From: a virus
Length of the DNA: 27,337 nt
IMG/VR virus record: IMGVR_UViG_3300017989_000377
Coordinates: 1-27,337 of that record
Direction: 5' to 3' (one strand)
Shown: positions 4,383 through 24,023 of the stretch, one piece after another
Layout of the letters: each line of letters starts with the position of its first letter
Numbering within the stretch: position 1 is the stretch's first letter
Notes under the pieces: generated by a model
Seen by the model: the letters and a program-made list of their open reading frames with translations, nothing else
What the model was told of the DNA's origin: nothing
Database searches by the model: none
Program-made: the position numbers and the translations under genes

Positions 4383-6192
4383 ATTGCTGCCCTCCAAACC
4401 CGGCCGCTGACTGTGCTTCTCCGGCCGTCATCTGTTGCATCTGATTTTGCTCCGTTGCAGGTGACGCCACCGGCCGTTGACCGGCGAATCCACCGTTCTG
4501 CAACACACCCGCGAGTTGTCCTTTGCCCGGATTCTGCGGCCCGAACATCATGAACGTCTCCATACGCTGAGCAAATTTCGGGTCGATAAAGACCTCTTGA
4601 ACAACCTCATCGATCCCCAGTTCCTCTGCCGCCTGCATAAGAGCACGAGGTAGATCAAACTCGATACCCATCTGCATCATTACCATTGCCGACTGCACCA
4701 TAGCGGGCACAACGTTCGTGTAATAATCCAGGAGTCGCTTTGAGCGGAGCGTCGGTTCCAGAATCGTCATCGAACGCTTGACGATCTCAAAACTGTATTC
4801 CAGGAAGTCACCCCGCATTTGTTCAGGCGTAAGGTAAACCTGAATCTCCTCGCCACCTGTTATGCGGCGGATCAATGGGATGCCGGGTTGACCAGGCTGG
4901 AACATCAGCGGATCATAGAATATGAACCACGCCTGCTTTTTGCTGATGTCGGCGTATGACTCCGCCATCATCGTCCGCATGTCCTCAACGCGCAGACTTG
5001 CATTTGCCTGTAAGCCCTGGAACTCCGTGGCAGTATCGGCGTTGCTCGTGGCAATTCCCATCATCTGATCGGGATTACCGGCCATGTAATTAAACCACCC
5101 TCGAAGCTCCTGAATCATTCGCTCGTTATCAGGATTCTGTCCACCGAATGACGCGACATTTACCCCGTTTGGGTCGTTACACGCAATCGAGGCACCGTCT
5201 TCCGCCGTGCGGATCGCTTCGGCCACATCTGCCAATTCCGGCCGATAGAGCAAAACGTCTTTCTGGCGCTCTGACTGGCCCATGAACTTCTTGAAAATCT
5301 CATTGGCCATGTCGTTCAAGTCGCGATACACGCCGACCGGAGCAATGGGGAACGGATTGTCAGGAACCGGCTGTGTCAACGAGCCAATCGTGTACGGTCC
5401 CTCAGCAGGACCATAGTAGTCCTTAATGAGCAAGAAGTCATCCAGCGTTAATTGCTGCGGGTCAGGGATATATGCCACGGCCTCCGCTTCCGGGACACAA
5501 ACCTCCACGACATACACATAATCCTGAAGGTCAAACATTCGTTTGGCCTGTTTGGAATCTTGTGTCATCGATTGCGCCCAATCCTTCTCCATCGGATGCT
5601 GAGAAGCAGACGGTAATCGATCCACAATCTCTTGTTTCATGCCGAGTTCAACTAATTGCTGCCTCGGGACTCGCAAACGATGTCCCATGAAATTGGCCTT
5701 ATCAAAAGCCAACGCCGTGGGATCAAACGTGAAGTCATCCATACTTACAACGTCGGTATAGACCATGCCAGGATCGACATCTTCATCGTCGCCGATTGGA
5801 ATCAGCAAACCGGACGCCGCAATACTCGTTTTGGCGATAAAAAACCCACCGAGTATTGTATCCACGAGCGCTGCTCGCATGATCTGCTTCATTTTGAGCT
5901 GTTTCTGGAGTCGATTTAGAGCCAGACCAAGAAGTTCCGCTGTTTCCTTGTTCCCTAGGAAATCAGTTGTGACCTTGTTAAGCCCTTCCCGCTGAATTAG
6001 CGCGGGTACAAGTGCATGGATGGCGAGAAAGACCAAATTGATCGGCATTTCTCCTGTAAGTCCCTGTTCGGCTTTGAAATAATGCCCGCAATAATCCTTA
6101 ATAAACAGAGCCCTGGCCCGTCGAAACCGCTTCATTCGCTCGAACCCTTCCTTTACGGCCTGGCTGAGCGTTGTCGCTGTCAACTCTGTCAT
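4375..6192 (-). CDS. Portal protein
   Basis: 605 residues from the ATG at 6192, which has a GAGGAGG SD and lies just past the terminase stop region. A longer in-frame start at 6258 would overlap the terminase by 58 bases and is not needed. It follows the large terminase, as portals do. It has a helical N-terminal half, a stem or wing region with NLVFLAIHALVPAL, a PFPIAPVGVYRDLNDMANEI segment typical of the portal clip and stem, and a Gln/Met/Gly-rich C-terminus. It forms the dodecameric DNA entry ring and docks the terminase. Identification rests on synteny plus segment pattern. Confidence 0.87.
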   Translation of the reverse strand: MTELTATTLSQAVKEGFERMKRFRRARALFIKDYCGHYFKAEQGLTGEMPINLVFLAIHALVPALIQREGLNKVTTDFLGNKETAELLGLALNRLQKQLKMKQIMRAALVDTILGGFFIAKTSIAASGLLIPIGDDEDVDPGMVYTDVVSMDDFTFDPTALAFDKANFMGHRLRVPRQQLVELGMKQEIVDRLPSASQHPMEKDWAQSMTQDSKQAKRMFDLQDYVYVVEVCVPEAEAVAYIPDPQQLTLDDFLLIKDYYGPAEGPYTIGSLTQPVPDNPFPIAPVGVYRDLNDMANEIFKKFMGQSERQKDVLLYRPELADVAEAIRTAEDGASIACNDPNGVNVASFGGQNPDNERMIQELRGWFNYMAGNPDQMMGIATSNADTATEFQGLQANASLRVEDMRTMMAESYADISKKQAWFIFYDPLMFQPGQPGIPLIRRITGGEEIQVYLTPEQMRGDFLEYSFEIVKRSMTILEPTLRSKRLLDYYTNVVPAMVQSAMVMMQMGIEFDLPRALMQAAEELGIDEVVQEVFIDPKFAQRMETFMMFGPQNPGKGQLAGVLQNGGFAGQRPVASPATEQNQMQQMTAGEAQSAAGFGGQQFG

Positions 6193-9222: not shown

Positions 9223-9699
9223 TTATTGTAGTTGTTTGCGGTAAAAAATCACATCCGACCCGTCGTCCAGATACTCCGCCAGCTCTCCCACACGCTGATA
9301 GCCCGCCTTCTCATAGAGCTTGCACGCTGCTGTAAAAATCGGATGAGCGTATGTTTCCACGAAGATTTCCCGGTATCCACGGGATCGAGCGATGTCTTCA
9401 ACGTAAGAAAGAAGCAATCCTCCGATTCCACGTCCGCGCCGATCGGATCGTACCGCCAGGTATCCGAGCCAAACCTTCCGTTTCGATATTTCAGCTCCGA
9501 TACCTCCGATTGCCACCAATCCGTGAGCGTCGAATCGCGCGTATACCCCAGTCTCATCACCGGTGGCACCCTCCCATTCTGCCTCTGCTCGCTCACCTAA
9601 CTGCTCCCCCATCGTTTGGTAAATCAGCGGCACCGCATATTCAATTACCTGCTTCGCTGATAGCTCGATCATGCGCCTGACTTGAGCCTGCGCAGCCAA
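9223..9699 (-). CDS. GNAT-family N-acetyltransferase
   Basis: 158 residues from a TTG with a GGAGG SD six bases upstream; an ATG nine codons later (MIELSAKQ, at 9672) is the alternative and would overlap the previous stop by four bases. The acetyl-CoA loop is RRGRGIGG at about 87-94, preceded by the strand WLGYLAVRSD and followed by the helix LLLSYVEDIARSRG. The end has the usual FTAACKLYEKAGYQ motif. The enzyme transfers acetyl groups to amines; the substrate is unknown. In a late operon it could modify a virion protein or a host factor. Confidence 0.85.
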   Translation of the reverse strand: MAAQAQVRRMIELSAKQVIEYAVPLIYQTMGEQLGERAEAEWEGATGDETGVYARFDAHGLVAIGGIGAEISKRKVWLGYLAVRSDRRGRGIGGLLLSYVEDIARSRGYREIFVETYAHPIFTAACKLYEKAGYQRVGELAEYLDDGSDVIFYRKQLQ

Positions 9700-10303: not shown

Positions 10304-10342
10304 CCAATAAGGGCTGAGATATAAGTTCAAACCTCGGATTTT
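10304..10342 (-). promoter_or_regulatory. Twin control element, late-operon copy
   Basis: Read on the minus strand: AAAATCCG, then AGGTTTGAACTTATAT, then CTCAGCCCTTATTGG, running straight into the SD of the first late gene. It matches the plus-strand element at 20777-20816 except for about four positions. A -10-like TTATAT is included, but no -35 hexamer is seen at 17 bases upstream, so it does not look like a plain sigma-70 promoter. Likely a phage-specific promoter plus leader. Confidence 0.65.
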
Positions 10343-11160: not shown

Positions 11161-11170
11161 GTCGCTGTGT

Positions 11171-11263
11171 GTTTAAAAGTTGCCTAACATCAATAATCGT
11201 CACAATCCACAAAAACCGGCGACACGGGTTATAACGATTATCGGTGTTTGACAACTTTTAAAC
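11171..11263. repeat. Large nested dyad, 30-base arms
   Basis: GTTTAAAAGTTG (11171-11182) is the exact reverse complement of 11252-11263, and ATAATCGT (11193-11200) of 11234-11241. The ten bases between the two arm parts are partly complementary, so 26 of 30 arm positions match. The centre is 33 bases. The symmetry is exact in spacing, which suggests a binding or recombination site or an origin structure. Confidence 0.7.
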
Positions 11264-11285
11264 GCGCAGCTTGTATGTGATATTG

Positions 11286-11786
11286 TGGACAAAATAAGTC
11301 CAAAATACTACGAAATTTTTCGTACTTCCGCCTCCGCGCGGCCGCAAGTCCGGTCTAGTCCACAATTAGTCCGTGACTGTCACGATCTCGGACTAACGTA
11401 ACCCCTGCCTCCATAAGTACTTATACCCTATTAGTCCATCTAGTCCATCATTTTAGAAGAAGAAAAAAGAAGAAGCAGATATAGGGCATAAAGAGGACAT
11501 AATGGGTCCAGTAATAATCATAACGGACGCCTTATGCATATTGCGACTATAGAAAGTTTTAGGGTGCCATGTCACGGACTGTTGCGCAAGGAAATCAAAC
11601 ATAAATACTTGCCACACAAGCATTTACATCTAGTCCATTAGGTTTTTGCTCTGGACTAGACATTGAGCTAATCCCTTACCACACAAAGACTTATATCAAA
11701 ACCGCATTTCGGCGCATGTAAAGGCCGTTTTTGAACGTAAGTCCTTGCCAGTAAAGCACTTAGATTGGACTACCGCCCTGGACTAA
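11286..11786. repeat. Array of TAGTCCA / TGGACTA motifs, candidate replication origin
   Basis: At least ten copies of (T/A)AGTCC(A/G) or its complement occur in 500 bases, including TCTAGTCCA at 11629-11637 with its exact inverse TGGACTAGA at 11652-11660, and TTAGTCCG at 11366-11373 with its inverse at 11389-11396. The second pair frames the palindrome GTGAC-T-GTCAC. The stretch is AT-richer than its surroundings and has no credible ORF. It looks like an iteron or operator cluster. Confidence 0.55.
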
Positions 11787-11971
11787 TCTTGCCGAGACGG
11801 CCAGAGGCCGTAGGACGGCCTTCACCCACCGACAGTACCGATTGTCCATTCTGAGGCATCCTGAGGCCATCTAGAGGCCGTCTGTAGGCACACGCAGCCG
11901 CCCGCACGCCACAAGCCCGCAACGCACAAAAAATCCTTACGTAAACCCTTGCATAGCAAGCACTTAGCATC
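11403..11971 (+). repeat. 23-base iteron-like repeats, four clear copies
   Basis: Clear copies start at 11608, 11675, 11744 and 11948 with pattern CTTGCCAnanAAGCACTTA; the copy at 11608 begins CTTGCCACACAAGCATTTA. A weaker copy starts at 11403. Spacings of the first three are 67 and 69 bases, and the fourth is 204 (about three times 68) further on. They interleave with the TAGTCCA motifs. Confidence 0.5.
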
Positions 11972-11988: not shown

Positions 11989-12017
11989 TTGGCAAACGGC
12001 TTTGCATGATGTATGCT
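11989..12017 (+). promoter_or_regulatory. Sigma-70 promoter P2 for the early operon
   Basis: TTGGCA at 11989-11994, a 17-base spacer, and TATGCT at 12012-12017. Expected start near 12024, exactly at the hairpin GTCGGC-AGGATG-GCCGAC (12024-12041), which would protect the 5' end of the early transcript. The last iteron-like repeat lies just upstream. Confidence 0.78.
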
Positions 12018-12023
12018 ATACGT

Positions 12024-12132
12024 GTCGGCAGGATGGCCGACGGTAACATCCGCCAGGATCGGCACGCCGCAAAGCTCCCGCCAAGCGGCAACAAGCTCTA
12101 GGAGAAACAAGCTCTAGGGGAACCGATTCCCC
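12024..12132 (+). promoter_or_regulatory. Early leader with repeated antisense-target boxes
   Basis: The leader holds ACAAGCTCTAGG twice, at 12091-12102 and 12107-12118 (period 16). The second continues to AAGCTCTAGGGG (12109-12120), an exact complement of 12 bases in the exposed strand of the small RNA at 18786-18868. Its GGGG also forms the stem GGGGAA-CCGA-TTCCCC (12117-12132), so pairing and hairpin would exclude each other. No start codon lies close to the boxes. Confidence 0.5.
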
Positions 12133-13126: not shown

Positions 13127-13138
13127 TAAGCTCTAGGG
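13127..13138 (+). promoter_or_regulatory. Ribosome-binding-site box complementary to the small RNA
   Basis: TAAGCTCTAGGG, followed by AGAAC and the ATG at 13147. The box contains most of the SD (AGGGAG) of the 19-residue ORF and is a 12-base exact complement of the exposed strand (18834-18847) of the RNA at 18786-18868. Confidence 0.55.
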
Positions 13139-13146
13139 AGAACATC

Positions 13147-13206
13147 ATGCAATCATTCTGGGAATTGATCTGGTTAGCCATGCTCGCGTACCTGGCCTTG
13201 TGTTGA
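13147..13206 (+). CDS. 19-residue single-helix membrane peptide
   Basis: The ATG has an AGGGAG SD. The whole product is one hydrophobic segment, MQSFWELIWLAMLAYLALC, long enough to span a membrane. Very short membrane peptides in phage early regions can act as toxins or modulators of membrane proteins; that role is only a possibility here. Its SD lies in the predicted antisense target, and its stop overlaps the start of element E3. Coding status rests on SD, ATG and coherent hydrophobicity. Confidence 0.55.
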   Translation: MQSFWELIWLAMLAYLALC

Positions 13207-13694: not shown

Positions 13695-13824
13695 AAGTTC
13701 GTGTCTTGAGTGTATGCGCTTTGGAGAGTGTATGCAAATTGCGTGGGCCGCCCAGCAACGGAGGCGACAGTGGCGGTTCTGGGGATTGCTCGCCCGGTGT
13801 ACGTGGCGGGTCTTTAAGGGGTGA
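13687..13824 (+). CDS. Small Cys/Trp/Arg-rich protein
   Basis: 45 residues overlapping the previous gene by eight bases. It begins MCESSCLECMRFGECMQ with five cysteines in 15 residues, followed by an amphipathic basic stretch (WAAQQRRRQWRFWGLL). Possibly a metal knuckle with a basic helix. Coupled translation is likely from the overlap. Function unknown. Confidence 0.6.
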   Translation: MCESSCLECMRFGECMQIAWAAQQRRRQWRFWGLLARCTWRVFKG

Positions 13825-13827
13825 TGT

Positions 13828-14007
13828 ATGCAGCAGCGTCTCAACGATGTTGAGACGGAAGAGTATTCACTGGAGGTCTATAGGTGTTCGTGTGGATTTG
13901 TTGTGGGGTTTGATGCGACGTTCATCGACCAGGTATGTCCTCCAGCGGATTTTCCGTCCGTCGTGTGTCCCGCGTGCGGGATGCGAATTGAAGCCGATCC
14001 TGAGTAG
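13828..14007 (+). CDS. Zinc-ribbon microprotein
   Basis: 59 residues with YRCSCGFVVGFD in the middle and VVCPACGMRIE near the end: two CxCG/CxxCG knuckles of one zinc ribbon, in the style of small rubredoxin-like folds. It starts three bases after the previous stop, preceded by a GGGGTG SD. Function unknown. Confidence 0.75.
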   Translation: MQQRLNDVETEEYSLEVYRCSCGFVVGFDATFIDQVCPPADFPSVVCPACGMRIEADPE

Positions 14008-14547: not shown

Positions 14548-15084
14548 ATGGGGATTGACTATGGTATGGGGAAAACGAACATCGATTCCGAAACGGGTAT
14601 TCGGTACGGTGTGATTTCCCAACACAGTGTGGGTTCATGGGCGTTGCAAGACATGGAGTATGACTACGGACCGCCGACGTGTCCATATTGTGGCGGAGAA
14701 GTTATCGAAATCAGTGAGTATGATGAAGATACTCTCGAAGGCTTTATGTCAGAACCGTATGAATGTGATGAGTACGTTTGCATCTCTTGTGAGCGTATTT
14801 TCGGTGGTGAATCGGCGTTCGGTGAAGCAATCGGCATGTATGTTGATAATGCCGATTACACGGTGACAACGTGTCTGGATTCAGACCTTATGGTCACTAG
14901 GTCGCCGTATTTCACCTATGCTGAATTCTGTTCACCGTGTGTGCCAGGGGCCGGAAATCTGGATCAGCCGGACCGGGCCGGACCGAAGACATACTGTCTC
15001 GGATATGACTGGTTTGATGAAGACAATCCGTGTCCATATCCGATCTATTCAATCGAGACTGGAGAACTCATTGTGGAGGGTTGA
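14548..15084 (+). CDS. Conserved phage zinc-ribbon protein
   Basis: 178 residues, strong GGAGGG SD. It opens MGIDYGMGKTNIDSETGIRY, a start I recognise from many uncharacterised phage proteins. CPYCG near residue 45 and CISC near 77 form a zinc ribbon. The C-terminal half has further cysteines and a TYCLGYDWFDEDNPCPYPIY end. It heads a set of larger early proteins. Function unknown. Confidence 0.82.
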   Translation: MGIDYGMGKTNIDSETGIRYGVISQHSVGSWALQDMEYDYGPPTCPYCGGEVIEISEYDEDTLEGFMSEPYECDEYVCISCERIFGGESAFGEAIGMYVDNADYTVTTCLDSDLMVTRSPYFTYAEFCSPCVPGAGNLDQPDRAGPKTYCLGYDWFDEDNPCPYPIYSIETGELIVEG

Positions 15085-17120: not shown

Positions 17121-17285
17121 ATGAATTGTCTAGACTCACAAGCGGAAAGGGAGGGAGCGGCAATTCAACAAATGCGATCCTACGCGCTGCGGAAACCGTC
17201 GTGTCGAGTGAAGCGCTGGGAACTACGGAGGGGCCTGGAAATCAGGGATGGGCGTCGTCGATTCAATGCGTTATTTGGGGGGTGA
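17121..17285 (+). CDS. Small basic hypothetical protein
   Basis: 54 residues from the ATG at 17121, preceded by AGAGAG. The sequence MNCLDSQAEREGAAIQQMRS continues into a basic helix (CRVKRWELRRGLEIRDGRRR). The charge pattern and the short gap to the next gene support coding. Function unknown. Confidence 0.6.
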   Translation: MNCLDSQAEREGAAIQQMRSYALRKPSCRVKRWELRRGLEIRDGRRRFNALFGG

Positions 17286-17702: not shown

Positions 17703-18338
17703 ATGAAACGCTACAAACTGACAACGCAGGACATGAAAACACGTCCTGGGGAAAGAAACGAAACACGGTGGGTCGTGGGGGAGTGGGTTGAAGCTACAGG
17801 TGACCTGGAACAGGACTTATGTTCGGATGCGTACATTCACTGGTATGACGACCCATTACTAGCTGTTTTGCTGAATCCGGTTCACGCCTGTCTTGATAAT
17901 CCAAGGTTGTGGGAAGTTGAGGTTACTGGGGACACAAAAACAGACGGACAGTTGAAGGGCGGTTCCAGGCGAGTGCGATTGGTGAGGGAAATCGACGTGC
18001 CCAGAATAACAATAGAAATGTGTGTGACATTTGCCATTCTGTGTGCCAAGGCCGTATACAAAGACAGAGAATGGAACACATGGGCAGACCGATGGCTGAG
18101 TGGAGAGGATCGCACTACCAACGCTGCTGACGCTGCCGGCTACGCTGCCCGTGCTGTTGTCGACGCCGACGCTGTCTCGGCTGCCAACGCTGCTGCCAAC
18201 GCTGCTGACGCTGCCGGCTACGCTGCCCGTGCTGTTGTCGACGCCGACGCTGTCTCGGCTGCCGACGCTGCTGTTGACGCTGCCTATGCTGCTGTCGATA
18301 TTGATCTGAAGAAGATCGCAACAGAGGCCACGCGATGA
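17703..18338 (+). CDS. DUF7666-like phage protein with Ala-rich repeat tail
   Basis: 211 residues. Residues 1-140 resemble a common phage protein: a strand, then DAYIHWYDDPLLAVLLNPVH, LWEVEV, and TFAILCAKAVYKDREWNTWA, ending LSGEDRTTNA. From about 140 to 200 it turns into Ala/Asp repeats (NAADAAGYAARAVVDADAV, twice), encoded by a 68-base perfect DNA repeat. In relatives this tail is also alanine-rich and varies in length, as far as I recall. Function unknown. Confidence 0.78.
   Translation: MKRYKLTTQDMKTRPGERNETRWVVGEWVEATGDLEQDLCSDAYIHWYDDPLLAVLLNPVHACLDNPRLWEVEVTGDTKTDGQLKGGSRRVRLVREIDVPRITIEMCVTFAILCAKAVYKDREWNTWADRWLSGEDRTTNAADAAGYAARAVVDADAVSAANAAANAADAAGYAARAVVDADAVSAADAAVDAAYAAVDIDLKKIATEATR
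18119..18264 (+). repeat. 68-bp perfect tandem repeat inside a gene
   Basis: Copies at 18119-18186 and 18197-18264 (period 78, a multiple of three) are identical. They encode the Ala-rich tail. Identity at all codon positions suggests a recent duplication. Confidence 0.9.
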
Positions 18339-18590: not shown

Positions 18591-18758
18591 ATGTTGAAAG
18601 CTATTCTCTTTTTCATTGGTGTTCATTCAGCCCCGCCCTTGGCGATGTTGGTTCTGGGCTACATGGCCGGGGTAAGGGGAGGGGCCTTGTTGCTGTGCGT
18701 CGTCATCGCCGTTATTGCCTGGATCATGTTTTTGGATTTTATTGGGGATCAGGATTGA
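18591..18758 (+). CDS. Two-helix membrane protein
   Basis: 55 residues with a GAGGAAGTGAGT leader. Two hydrophobic segments, ILFFIGVHSAPPLAMLVLGY and ALLLCVVIAVIAWIMFLDFI, are separated by a short GVRGG turn; the end is acidic (GDQD). This is a hairpin topology like small class II holins, but no endolysin is nearby. Its stop overlaps the -35 box of the small-RNA promoter. Confidence 0.65.
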   Translation: MLKAILFFIGVHSAPPLAMLVLGYMAGVRGGALLLCVVIAVIAWIMFLDFIGDQD

Positions 18759-18783
18759 CACGCCCGGCATCATTTGCTATACT
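18755..18783 (+). promoter_or_regulatory. Sigma-70 promoter of the small RNA
   Basis: TTGACA at 18755-18760, a 17-base spacer, TATACT at 18778-18783. This is the best sigma-70 match in the window. No ORF follows; the product is the RNA at 18786-18868. Confidence 0.88.
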
Positions 18784-18785
18784 AT

Positions 18786-18868
18786 GATCGGCCCGCTGGG
18801 TTTCGAGTGCCGATACTGCACAGTATCGGACTCACCCCTAGAGCTTACCAGCGGGCCGATCCTTTTTC
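18786..18868 (+). ncRNA. Structured small RNA with antisense box
   Basis: Closing stem GATCGGCCCGCTGG (18786-18799) pairs perfectly with 18848-18861, then CTTTTTC ends the transcript. If the start is near 18790 the stem is about 10 bp. Inside is a hairpin, GAGT plus CCGATACT pairing with AGTATCGG plus ACTC, around a GCAC loop. The remaining single strand 18834-18847 (ACCCCTAGAGCTTA) is complementary over 12 bases to 13127-13138 and 12109-12120 and over 10 bases to 12093-12102. It has no ORF. The layout, beside the integrase, resembles phage antisense immunity RNAs. Confidence 0.8.
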
Positions 18869-19708
18869 TCAATCATCTTCATCAAGGCAGTCGGTCGCTC
18901 CCGTTACACTCGGGCGGGTAAGGTGTACGTACACCGTTTCCGTCGTCCTGGTGCTGGCATGGCCCAGAATCTCAGCAATCTTCTTGAGGGATTCTCCCTT
19001 CTCGACCATGCGCGTCGTGAAGTAGTGCCGCAGACTGTGTGGTGTGGCGACGGGGTCGATCCTCGCCCGGCGAGACACGGCCTCCAGCATGTGTGAGAGA
19101 TGCCGTCGATGCTTGTTGTAAGCGGCAACAAACGGGATCGGGTCTTCTCCTTTGTGTTTGAGTAGCATTTCTCGTAGGCCCCAGCTTATCGGAACCGAGC
19201 GAAATCGATCTTGTTGTCCTCGCTTGGTTTTTCCTCGCACCACGACATGTCGGTAGTCGGGTGTGAAATCCTTCCAAGCGATGCAGCAAAATTCCCTGGT
19301 TCGCGCGCCGGTACGCGCCAGGAAATAGATAGCTTCCCACTCCGTTCCTCTGGCCGCTCGCAAAAGGAGCTGTACTTCTTCATGTGAGAGTATCCGTCGC
19401 GAGATTTCTGCTTTCGGTAGGTAGTCCACTTTCCGCATGGGGTTGTCCAGATCGTATTGTCTGCTCACCCAGTGACACAGGCTTTTCAATACATTAATAT
19501 ATGTGTTGACTGAATTGGTTTTCACGCCCGTAGTGACAAGCTGGTCCTTCCAGTCATCAACTTGTCGCCAGCTCAGTTCTTCGAAGTATGGTGGCATGAA
19601 CGGTCGGAATCTGCGCATCACCTTACAGTACAATTCCGTGGTTGCCTCTGAACGGTGGAGTCGGATGTACTGTAGCCACTGACGAATTACTACCTCAGAG
19701 TGATTCAT
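18869..19708 (-). CDS. int: Tyrosine recombinase / phage integrase
   Basis: 279 residues from the ATG at 19708, which has AGGAG seven bases upstream; a longer frame to 19879 lacks an SD. The N-terminal part is a SAM-like core-binding domain (HSEVVIRQWLQYIRLHRSEA). The catalytic set is Arg136 (TGART), Lys about 161, His224 and Arg227 (HSLRHYF), His250 (LGHAS) and Tyr260 (TVYVH), all present. It cuts and joins phage and host attachment sites. It is the only leftward gene in the rightward half and has its own promoter. Its stop lies next to the small-RNA T-run, so the two transcripts converge. Confidence 0.93.
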   Translation of the reverse strand: MNHSEVVIRQWLQYIRLHRSEATTELYCKVMRRFRPFMPPYFEELSWRQVDDWKDQLVTTGVKTNSVNTYINVLKSLCHWVSRQYDLDNPMRKVDYLPKAEISRRILSHEEVQLLLRAARGTEWEAIYFLARTGARTREFCCIAWKDFTPDYRHVVVRGKTKRGQQDRFRSVPISWGLREMLLKHKGEDPIPFVAAYNKHRRHLSHMLEAVSRRARIDPVATPHSLRHYFTTRMVEKGESLKKIAEILGHASTRTTETVYVHLTRPSVTGATDCLDEDD

Positions 19709-20179: not shown

Positions 20180-20358
20180 ACTTCGTTGACTTTGATTGTC
20201 ACATCGTCAATTTGATTGACGTTGGCATGAATCCACGGCTTCCCAGATTCTGGGAGGCGATGCGCCTGTATGTGAAGACTTTCGCGGGACCGGGGTTACG
20301 ACCACCGTTGATGGAGCGATTACGTCGTAAACGAGCGGAGGCATTGAAGCATGGCTAG
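20173..20358 (+). CDS. Small hypothetical protein
   Basis: 61 residues, ATG with GGAGG seven bases upstream. The first half is hydrophobic and acidic (MLNFVDFDCHIVNLIDVGMN), the second basic and helical (PPLMERLRRKRAEALKHG). It overlaps the next gene by eight bases. Function unknown. Confidence 0.65.
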   Translation: MLNFVDFDCHIVNLIDVGMNPRLPRFWEAMRLYVKTFAGPGLRPPLMERLRRKRAEALKHG

Positions 20359-20557
20359 ACGTGTTCGGAAACCGTTCAAAGCTCAGACCAATAAAGGTAT
20401 ACGTTTGTCTATGCCCAAGATTGCGGCTATGGCTGAAACACAGCGTGATTCCTTGATCGCGCGTCATGGTCTGGAGCAGGCTCTCAAGGTCGCAAAGCTG
20501 GTGTACCAGAAGGTGCAAGCTACTTACAACGTTCAGAAGAAAATGGGGAAGATATGA
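20351..20557 (+). CDS. Small basic helical protein
   Basis: 68 residues. A basic start, MARRVRKPFKAQTNKGIRLS, leads to a long helix (AMAETQRDSLIARHGLEQAL) and a basic tail. Nucleic-acid binding is plausible but unproven. Both ends overlap neighbouring genes, showing a coupled operon. Confidence 0.68.
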   Translation: MARRVRKPFKAQTNKGIRLSMPKIAAMAETQRDSLIARHGLEQALKVAKLVYQKVQATYNVQKKMGKI

Positions 20558-20776: not shown

Positions 20777-20816
20777 AAAATCCGGGGTTTGAACTTATAT
20801 TCCAGCCCTTTATTGG
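20777..20816 (+). promoter_or_regulatory. Twin control element, regulator copy
   Basis: AAAATCCG, GGGTTTGAACTTATAT, TCCAGCCCTTTATTGG, followed at once by the SD of the helix-turn-helix gene. Nearly identical to 10304-10342 (minus). A pyrimidine-rich stretch precedes it (20735-20776). No sigma-70 -35 box is seen. Probably a phage-specific promoter with leader. Confidence 0.65.
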
Positions 20817-20827
20817 AGGCGATTAAC

Positions 20828-21184
20828 ATGCTCAAAAAGACTTTCGAAGATTTTGTTGACCTGGCGTTTTTCACGTCTGGCAAACACGAGAAATTGGTGA
20901 CGACAGAAGATGAACAACGAGAGCGAGAAAGGATCAGAACGCTCTTGTTGTCACACATGCGAAATCGCGGTGTTACCAAGCGTCAGGTTGTCTGTTATAT
21001 CAACTGGGTTAATGGAATGACTCAAGGACAAATAGCAGACGAACTTGGTGTTGAGCAACCAGCCATCAGTCAGTTTCTTAATGGGCTCAAAGACAAGTGG
21101 CCTCATCTCTTTCAATTCCCGGAGGTTGTTATGCACCAGTACGATCCTCTGCGAGACGACCACCAAACTCTGAGGCAGTTCTAA
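20828..21184 (+). CDS. Sigma region 4-like helix-turn-helix regulator
   Basis: 118 residues, ATG with GGAGG SD. Residues about 50-90 read VTKRQVVCYINWVNGMTQGQ and continue IADELGVEQPAISQFLNGL: a sigma-70 region 4 or LuxR-type helix-turn-helix. The first 45 residues are an acidic to charged helix, with no region 2 of a full sigma factor. It may be a truncated sigma-like or late-gene activator. The control element in front of it also fronts the late operon, which supports a transcription role at both. Confidence 0.72.
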   Translation: MLKKTFEDFVDLAFFTSGKHEKLVTTEDEQRERERIRTLLLSHMRNRGVTKRQVVCYINWVNGMTQGQIADELGVEQPAISQFLNGLKDKWPHLFQFPEVVMHQYDPLRDDHQTLRQF

Positions 21185-23305: not shown

Positions 23306-23667
23306 TGAATCTACCATTCACGAATGAACAACTATATCCCGATCAACAATATGACGGGTACTCAGGACCTATTGAGCGATTGGCCCTGTCAATGGAAAGG
23401 TTTACTGCTGCTCGACTCAAAGCAAAATTGCGGCGTTTCGGTATCGACCCCGATATAGTCTTCCCTGAGGATTACATGTGCCGTGACAACATAATTCATC
23501 TCATCCGTTATTACTACGGTCTATATTTCAGTATGGATGAATCACCTGCGTATTGTGCTTATGGGGACACGCCGATTGAAAAGCTGAACCGCAGATGTTT
23601 GGTTTACCTGAGTCAGTATCTTCAGGCCGTACTTGCCGAGGACAATCGAAAAAGGAGGAAGCGATGA
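23305..23667 (+). CDS. Tandem paralog 1, unknown family
   Basis: 120 residues, ATG with AGAGGAGAAAG SD. Core: LKAKLRRFGIDPDIVFPEDY, then IRYYYGLYFS, a loop with two cysteines, and LVYLSQYLQAVLAEDN. It is clearly related to the next gene across the last 85 residues. The N-terminal 35 residues differ. In this copy the CxxC of the sister gene has become CAYG, so a metal site is probably lost. Confidence 0.78.
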   Translation: MNLPFTNEQLYPDQQYDGYSGPIERLALSMERFTAARLKAKLRRFGIDPDIVFPEDYMCRDNIIHLIRYYYGLYFSMDESPAYCAYGDTPIEKLNRRCLVYLSQYLQAVLAEDNRKRRKR

Positions 23668-24023
23668 ATCCATTGTATGAAGAGTTCGTTATTAGAATTC
23701 CCAAGATTGAGACTCCGTGCCATAAGGAACGTTTTCGCAACTGCGAAATGATAACGGTAAACTATATTGCTGGTACCCAGCTCAGGGCACGACTGCAAAC
23801 TTACGGTATCGACCCCGATATGATGTTCCCCGAAGATTACATGCACCATGACGATTTGCTTGCCCTCATTCGTCACTATTACGGTCTGGTTTTTGATGAC
23901 GACAAGACATGCATGTGTTGCTATTGCGGAATGCCGATTGAAAGACTACAGCACAGGCATTTGATCTTCTTGAGTCAATATCTTCAGGCTGTTCTCGCTG
24001 AGGATAATCGGGAAAAGGAATGA
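23664..24023 (+). CDS. Tandem paralog 2, unknown family
   Basis: 119 residues, ATG with AGGAGG SD, overlapping paralog 1 by four bases. Core: LRARLQTYGIDPDMMFPEDY, then IRHYYGLVFD, the loop CMCCYCGMPIERLQHRH, and LIFLSQYLQAVLAEDN. The cysteines and histidines of the loop could hold zinc. Tandem duplication with divergence of one copy is evident. Function unknown. Confidence 0.78.
   Translation: MNPLYEEFVIRIPKIETPCHKERFRNCEMITVNYIAGTQLRARLQTYGIDPDMMFPEDYMHHDDLLALIRHYYGLVFDDDKTCMCCYCGMPIERLQHRHLIFLSQYLQAVLAEDNREKE

Follow-up and report, generated by a model that had tools for sequence, protein, structure and literature searches.

A putative antisense RNA in an integrase-bearing phage, with predicted targets in the early leader and at a membrane-peptide start site

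RESULTS

A structured RNA locus beside the integrase gene

The window, by which we mean the whole stretch of DNA analyzed, is a virus record of 27,337 bases. Its genes include those for an SU10-type portal, a tyrosine integrase, and a terminase that has many relatives. Between convergent gene ends, adjoining the integrase gene, lies a predicted promoter followed directly by a dyad that would specify a small RNA.

18591..18758, plus strand: 55-aa ORF inside a longer frame, with two hydrophobic stretches (by eye); its stop overlaps the small RNA promoter
18755..18783, plus strand: predicted small RNA promoter, TTGACA (18755-18760), 17 nt, TATACT (18778-18783), extended -10; 11/12 consensus
18786..18867, plus strand: candidate small structured RNA, probable start at 18786-18790 and probable end in the U-run; z -7.0
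18786..18799, plus strand: closing stem, 5' arm, pairing with 18848-18861 (14 bp, perfect)
18805..18833, plus strand: inner hairpin of the small RNA, GAGT-g-CCGATACT / AGTATCGGACTC, from the centroid fold
18834..18847, plus strand: exposed anti-box ACCCCTAGAGCTTA, from complementarity, folding, and the accessibility-weighted scan
18848..18861, plus strand: closing stem, 3' arm, followed by CTTTTTCTC; terminator-like by eye
18869..19708, minus strand: tyrosine integrase, convergent with the small RNA (PF00589, E 1.3e-22)

The preliminary description of this locus named a near-consensus promoter feeding a closed stem, an inner hairpin, and a T-run, and the hexamer match and the 14-bp stem bear this out. 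The extended -10 consists of a TG before the second hexamer, and the promoter is the best of 12 promoter-like sites between 11900 and 20000, where 50 shuffles produced a mean of 5.9. The RNA has a predicted folding energy of -46.0 kcal/mol, and none of 200 shuffles folded as well. Its closing stem is not in the list from our terminator scan, which took loops of 3 to 8 nucleotides only. The anti-box, described as unpaired, is open in the centroid fold, but in the MFE fold three of its bases (18841-18843) are weakly paired. Taken literally, the claim that no ORF is present fails, since two mechanical TTG-start ORFs on the plus strand cross the locus; nothing supports either of them, and we rejected a protein-coding reading. 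Rfam gave no match anywhere in the window at gathering scores and none within 18650-18950 at E ≤ 10.

Target boxes and their chance expectation

As the preliminary description stated, the anti-box is exactly complementary to three plus-strand sites, two of them in the early leader and one over the Shine-Dalgarno region of a membrane peptide. Ranks below are those of the accessibility-weighted scan.

11989..12017, plus strand: probable early leader promoter, TTGGCA, 17 nt, TATGCT; 9/12 consensus
12093..12102, plus strand: target box 1, early leader, 10 nt, exact complement of the anti-box; -17.4 kcal/mol
12109..12120, plus strand: target box 2, early leader, 12 nt, exact complement; -23.6 kcal/mol, rank 4 on the plus strand
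13127..13138, plus strand: target box over the Shine-Dalgarno region of the membrane peptide, 12 nt, exact complement; -23.4 kcal/mol, rank 1 on the plus strand
13147..13206, plus strand: 19-aa hydrophobic peptide MQSFWELIWLAMLAYLALC, within a longer frame
13804..13824, plus strand: possible extra target, GGGGTGA before the gene at 13828, pairing with TCACCCC of the small RNA; rank 2 on the plus strand, weak

The sequence AAGCTCTAGG has no further copy on the plus strand of the window. The small RNA lies 5.7 to 6.7 kb from its targets, and within the window boxes were found only upstream of it. Another GGGGTGA site, likewise complementary to TCACCCC, precedes a start at 17278-17285.

The earlier estimate that a chance hit is far below one was too strong: when the 48-nt loop was shuffled 20,000 times by mononucleotide, at least one complementary 12-mer arose in 4.4% of the shuffles and at least two arose in 1.1%. 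Complementary 12-mers are about twice as numerous in the whole window as in its shuffles (121 versus 59), and one 12-mer elsewhere (at 14809) likewise has two complements. Within the window alone, box complementarity is only moderately significant and no more than suggestive; the loop shuffles equal it in about 1% of cases. Within their own transcripts, the target boxes are base-paired in part (mean unpaired, 0.43 in the leader and 0.40 at the peptide); in the accessibility-weighted scan, the peptide site costs about 3.3 kcal/mol to open, with about 22 gained.

Different boxes and anti-boxes in three relatives

Relatives were sought by design within the terminase family of the window phage, and sequence likeness was not required. 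One contig (G001) is 99.98% identical to the window over 18.5 kb and is the same phage, so it supplies no variation. Three others, designated G002, L043, and G057, have the predicted design with boxes of their own.

In G002, whose integrase is 29% identical to that of the window, an early promoter is followed directly by the box AAAGCGGAAAGC and then by a 10-bp GC-rich stem with a U-run, enclosing GCTTTCCGCTTT. An exact copy of this box precedes a 42-aa hydrophobic peptide, and a shorter copy lies at the ribosome-binding site (RBS) of a third gene. The RNA sits in the early leader, with the promoter and one box before it and the other boxes after it.

The L043 record, a fragment of 14 kb, has a terminase 59% identical to that of the window, and no integrase was found in it. 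Here, the RNA is on the strand opposite the early genes, where TTGACA-17-TATGAT feeds a closing stem, an inner hairpin, and GGTTAGCCC. Apart from the RNA locus, GGGCTAAYC occurs at five sites on the early strand, four of which are within two bases of an ATG. For this pattern, which was taken from the L043 data, 200 shuffles gave 0.065 occurrences per strand on average.

In G057/L145 (integrase, 30 to 31% identical), an 11-bp closing stem surrounds GTCTGATGTCTCCTCACATAGCTTGCCAGC. Behind the second of two early promoters, both read by eye, stands AGCTGGCAAGCTA...TGAGGAGATCAGAC, with which the RNA would form 26 pairs (12 + 8 + 6 bp, -42.4 kcal/mol) in three blocks lying over the box and the Shine-Dalgarno sequence; the box recurs behind the first promoter. 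The RNA lies inside the early operon, and no convincing promoter of its own was seen by eye. Its strongest site belongs to a 52-aa gene whose product looks soluble by eye, and a short hydrophobic peptide is encoded behind the first leader.

The folds of all four RNAs have z values of -5.1 to -7.0, and for none of them did any of 200 shuffles fold as well. By eye, the four have no sequence likeness to one another, and in the relatives Rfam returned chance-level matches only (best E, 0.56 to 0.71). A joint change of the box and the leader boxes had been proposed as a check in related phages, and this is what we find: the pairs of all three relatives differ from that of the window, and each pair matches itself. 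Adjacency to the integrase gene holds in the window but is not general, as the RNA is in the early leader in G002, opposite the leader in L043, and about 1.8 kb from the integrase gene in G057.

Accessibility-weighted scans covered both strands of the window and L043 and the plus strand of G002 and G057. The boxes ranked 1 and 4 on the plus strand of the window, 1, 2, and 5 on that of G002, 1, 2, 3, 5, and 7 on the minus strand of L043, and 1 and 2 on the plus strand of G057; in all four phages, the top-ranked site of the target strand was thus in an early leader or at a start. The best site on the off-target strand scored -15.5 versus -18.9 for the best box in the window, and -16.0 (plus strand) versus -16.2 in L043. 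Two G-rich sites (ranks 2 and 3) score above leader box 2 on the plus strand of the window and may be further targets or noise. Whole-molecule co-folding, which cannot represent loop-loop pairing, yielded gains of 0 to -3.8 kcal/mol for five pairs, with no intermolecular pairs for the window peptide.

Census of the terminase family

We searched 100 terminase-family records or stretches (1.38 Mb) for closing stems of at least 10 bp with 7 GC, a T-rich tail, and at least two 9-nt complements before starts. This census returned 17 stem-loops and 7 strand-hits in 6 records (the window, G002, L043, G057 on both strands, G058, and G059), and the reversed and complemented controls returned 2 each, all in G058/G059. 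The window, G002, L043, and G057 stand out, and G058/G059 are weak; because we chose the criterion with these four cases already in view, the census is descriptive. In G058 (L146, 10856-10931) and G059, an 11- to 12-bp stem-loop lies just before a DNA polymerase gene and passes both the census and its controls.

By count, looser scans gave no clear excess over their controls. Across 74 records there were 48 real hits versus 105 in two controls together, and across 127 records the excess (71 versus a mean of 35) was largely in GC-rich MAG stretches, with G002 and L043 missed. Among single records, G057 gave 13 versus 6 in its control and the window gave 2 versus 1. The window and G002 (in the 74 records) and the window and G057 (in the others) were distinct by stem strength and by runs of matching k-mers. 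A loose 9-mer scan near starts that admitted G-U pairs was dominated by noise; its reversed-loop control (26.0) exceeded the best real case (20.2), and we therefore dropped it and do not claim L142, its top-scoring record.

Promoter-plus-stem candidates in L048, G008, L072, and L133 were inspected and are not claimed. At L048 (6621-6780), a strong promoter runs into a 29-pair stem and a T-run upstream of the terminase, and repeated targets were not found. L133, an alphaproteobacterial MAG contig, has at 9223-9370 a TTGACA promoter, a 12-pair stem, a T-rich tail, and an 11-nt complement just downstream at 9522, a possible further antisense RNA. On the minus strand of L117/G065, near 4965 and 5130, the box GGACACACGCA is repeated before early starts, with no complement or antisense RNA found; a 25-aa peptide of L117 ends in AYITLC (compare AYLALC in the window).

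Integrases and candidate regulators

Terminase-related loci numbered 21 among genome contigs, three of them, at ≥49% identity, in MAGs labeled Neptuniibacter, Planctomycetota, and Aegiribacteria. PF00589 was detected in 2 of 35 records (G001 and G002) and in 4 of 16 records of a second set (G001, G002, G057, and G063). The predicted RNA is present in all three integrase-bearing family members found, and since many records may be fragments, this link is suggestive only. G063, which has an integrase, was set aside, having neither a terminase of the window's family nor a clear RNA. The integrases of the window and G002 matched nothing in 37 further family records, in a comparison run with no positive control, and integrase-based searches reached only phages already in the set plus three unrelated ones (L175-L177).

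No protein repressor was seen in the preliminary description. However, 20807-21184 contains the gene for a protein, probably starting at 20828, with a weak HTH (HTH_5, E 2.5e-4, below the cutoff; also PHROG regulators) and a relative in G002 (35%), so it may be a regulator. Among ten ORFs scanned, only this protein and that at 20351-20554 (AsnC-type, below the cutoff, E 0.0095) look regulatory, and no recognized repressor was found among the nine ORFs of a second scan. A switch made of RNA only therefore stays a candidate, and a protein repressor is possible. A 40-nt sequence occurs at 10304-10342 and at 20777-20816 (90% identity, opposite orientations), each time just upstream of a gene, and is possibly a shared promoter or operator.

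DISCUSSION

We consider it probable that this locus encodes a trans-acting phage antisense RNA of the immunity type, directed against the phage's own early leader and the RBS of its membrane peptide. An RNA of about 75 to 80 nt would be transcribed from its own promoter and would terminate at its own closing stem and U-run, with the stem and the inner hairpin keeping the 12- to 14-nt anti-box single-stranded. Contact between the loop and the mRNA would begin at the anti-box, which, by pairing with the early leader boxes and the RBS of the early membrane peptide, would cover the RBS or the leader, blocking translation of the early operon and/or elongation; we infer a block of translation rather than termination. 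The most likely use would be silencing of the early operon in lysogens, together with immunity to phages that have the same box, which would make the small RNA a lysis-lysogeny switch. The 3' end of the integrase mRNA, if extended, would be antisense to the small RNA, allowing possible feedback.

The hydrophobic peptide also invites a type I toxin-antitoxin reading, in which the peptide is the toxin, the RNA is the antitoxin, and the leader boxes are secondary. Consistent with it, the RNA has complementarity to an mRNA encoding a small hydrophobic peptide, the box is on or adjoins the RBS of such a peptide in the window and G002, and G057 too has one behind its first leader. The predicted targets, however, also include the early leader boxes and further early genes, among them five starts in L043, and the strongest G057 site falls at the soluble-looking 52-aa gene; we regard this reading as unlikely. 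Slightly less probable again is an RNA that times the shut-off of early genes during lytic growth, with no role in lysogeny. Its targets would be early genes, as observed, and L043 is a 14-kb fragment without an integrase, but the RNA is in all three family members found with an integrase, and L043 is the sole further clear case in 100 stretches (G058/G059 being weak), a count that is suggestive only, as many of these are fragments. It is very improbable that the dyad is a plain terminator or attP structure whose complementarity arose by chance: although it lies between convergent gene ends next to the integrase gene and its window-only significance is modest, a promoter stands directly in front of it, the design recurs with other boxes in three relatives (none beside an integrase gene as far as seen), and no tRNA was found in the window.

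Antisense immunity RNAs have been worked out in a few enterobacterial phages. The sar RNA of P22 is complementary to one site over its length, whereas the RNA described here is predicted to act at several starts through a short box. P22 sar is a 68/69-nt antisense RNA that hinders the start of ant translation (PMC12197685). C4 of P1/P7 is a structured RNA of about 77 nt whose loops pair around the RBS of an operon of its own phage, with the a' and b' loops carrying target specificity (PMC12197685, PMC5320573); it blocks the RBS of the ant mRNA, is essential for P1/P7 heteroimmunity (PMC12197685, PMC5320573; also PMC8546580), is cut by RNase P from a longer transcript (PMC5320573), and is predicted in further Proteobacteria and phages (PMC2864571, PMC5320573). 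The P4 CI RNA is processed, pairs with two sites, seqA upstream of itself and seqC downstream, and shuts off expression of the phage's replication genes (PMC4825925).

Like C4, the window RNA has a loop complementary to the leader and the RBS of an operon of its own phage, and the several-block pairing in G057 resembles that of a' and b'. Unlike C4, which is processed by RNase P (PMC5320573), it has its own promoter-like site and lies at a distance from its targets. The G002 order, with boxes on both sides of the RNA, recalls P4 CI, whereas the boxes of the window were found only upstream and its RNA, with its own promoter, is about 6 kb from the leader. The C4 covariance model RF01695 matched none of five records at E ≤ 10 (G000, G001, G002, G013, and G057), in a search that no control genome passed either, and nothing in short-stretch scans of the window RNA and its relatives; no antirepressor gene was recognized among the ORFs scanned. 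On the best reading, the RNA would work like C4 and CI without being matched by RF01695, and we place it as a probable variant within the C4/CI kind. The suggestion of a new type does not stand, as P1 C4 and P4 CI already work this way. Among the literature matches listed, no title or opening abstract describes this RNA, which does not prove its absence from the literature.

A bolder extension of the immunity reading, which we hold tentatively and rather doubt, is a re-programmable RNA repressor: the prophage would be held by RNA and not by a CI-type protein, one RNA would silence a set of early starts sharing a box, and immunity groups would arise through joint change of box and anti-box, all within a large family of uncultivated phages. 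That four unrelated box/anti-box pairs occur in one such family suggests a design of wider occurrence that does not depend on sequence homology and goes unseen by family models; a search could look for a box repeated in front of early starts, together with its complement inside a closed stem resembling a terminator.

Other features of the window

The region that precedes the early leader is long and lacks clear genes. It contains an inverted repeat of 45 nt (80%) and three direct repeats of 29 nt (72 to 100%), at 11164-11270 and 11599-11967, and is a possible origin. At 18115-18270, a 78-nt in-frame tandem duplication forms part of the Ala-rich tail of a DUF7666 protein; an Ala-rich tail is also seen, by eye, in G057. 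Adjacent paralogous gene stretches at 23439-23656 and 23804-24019 share 72% DNA identity over 222 nt.
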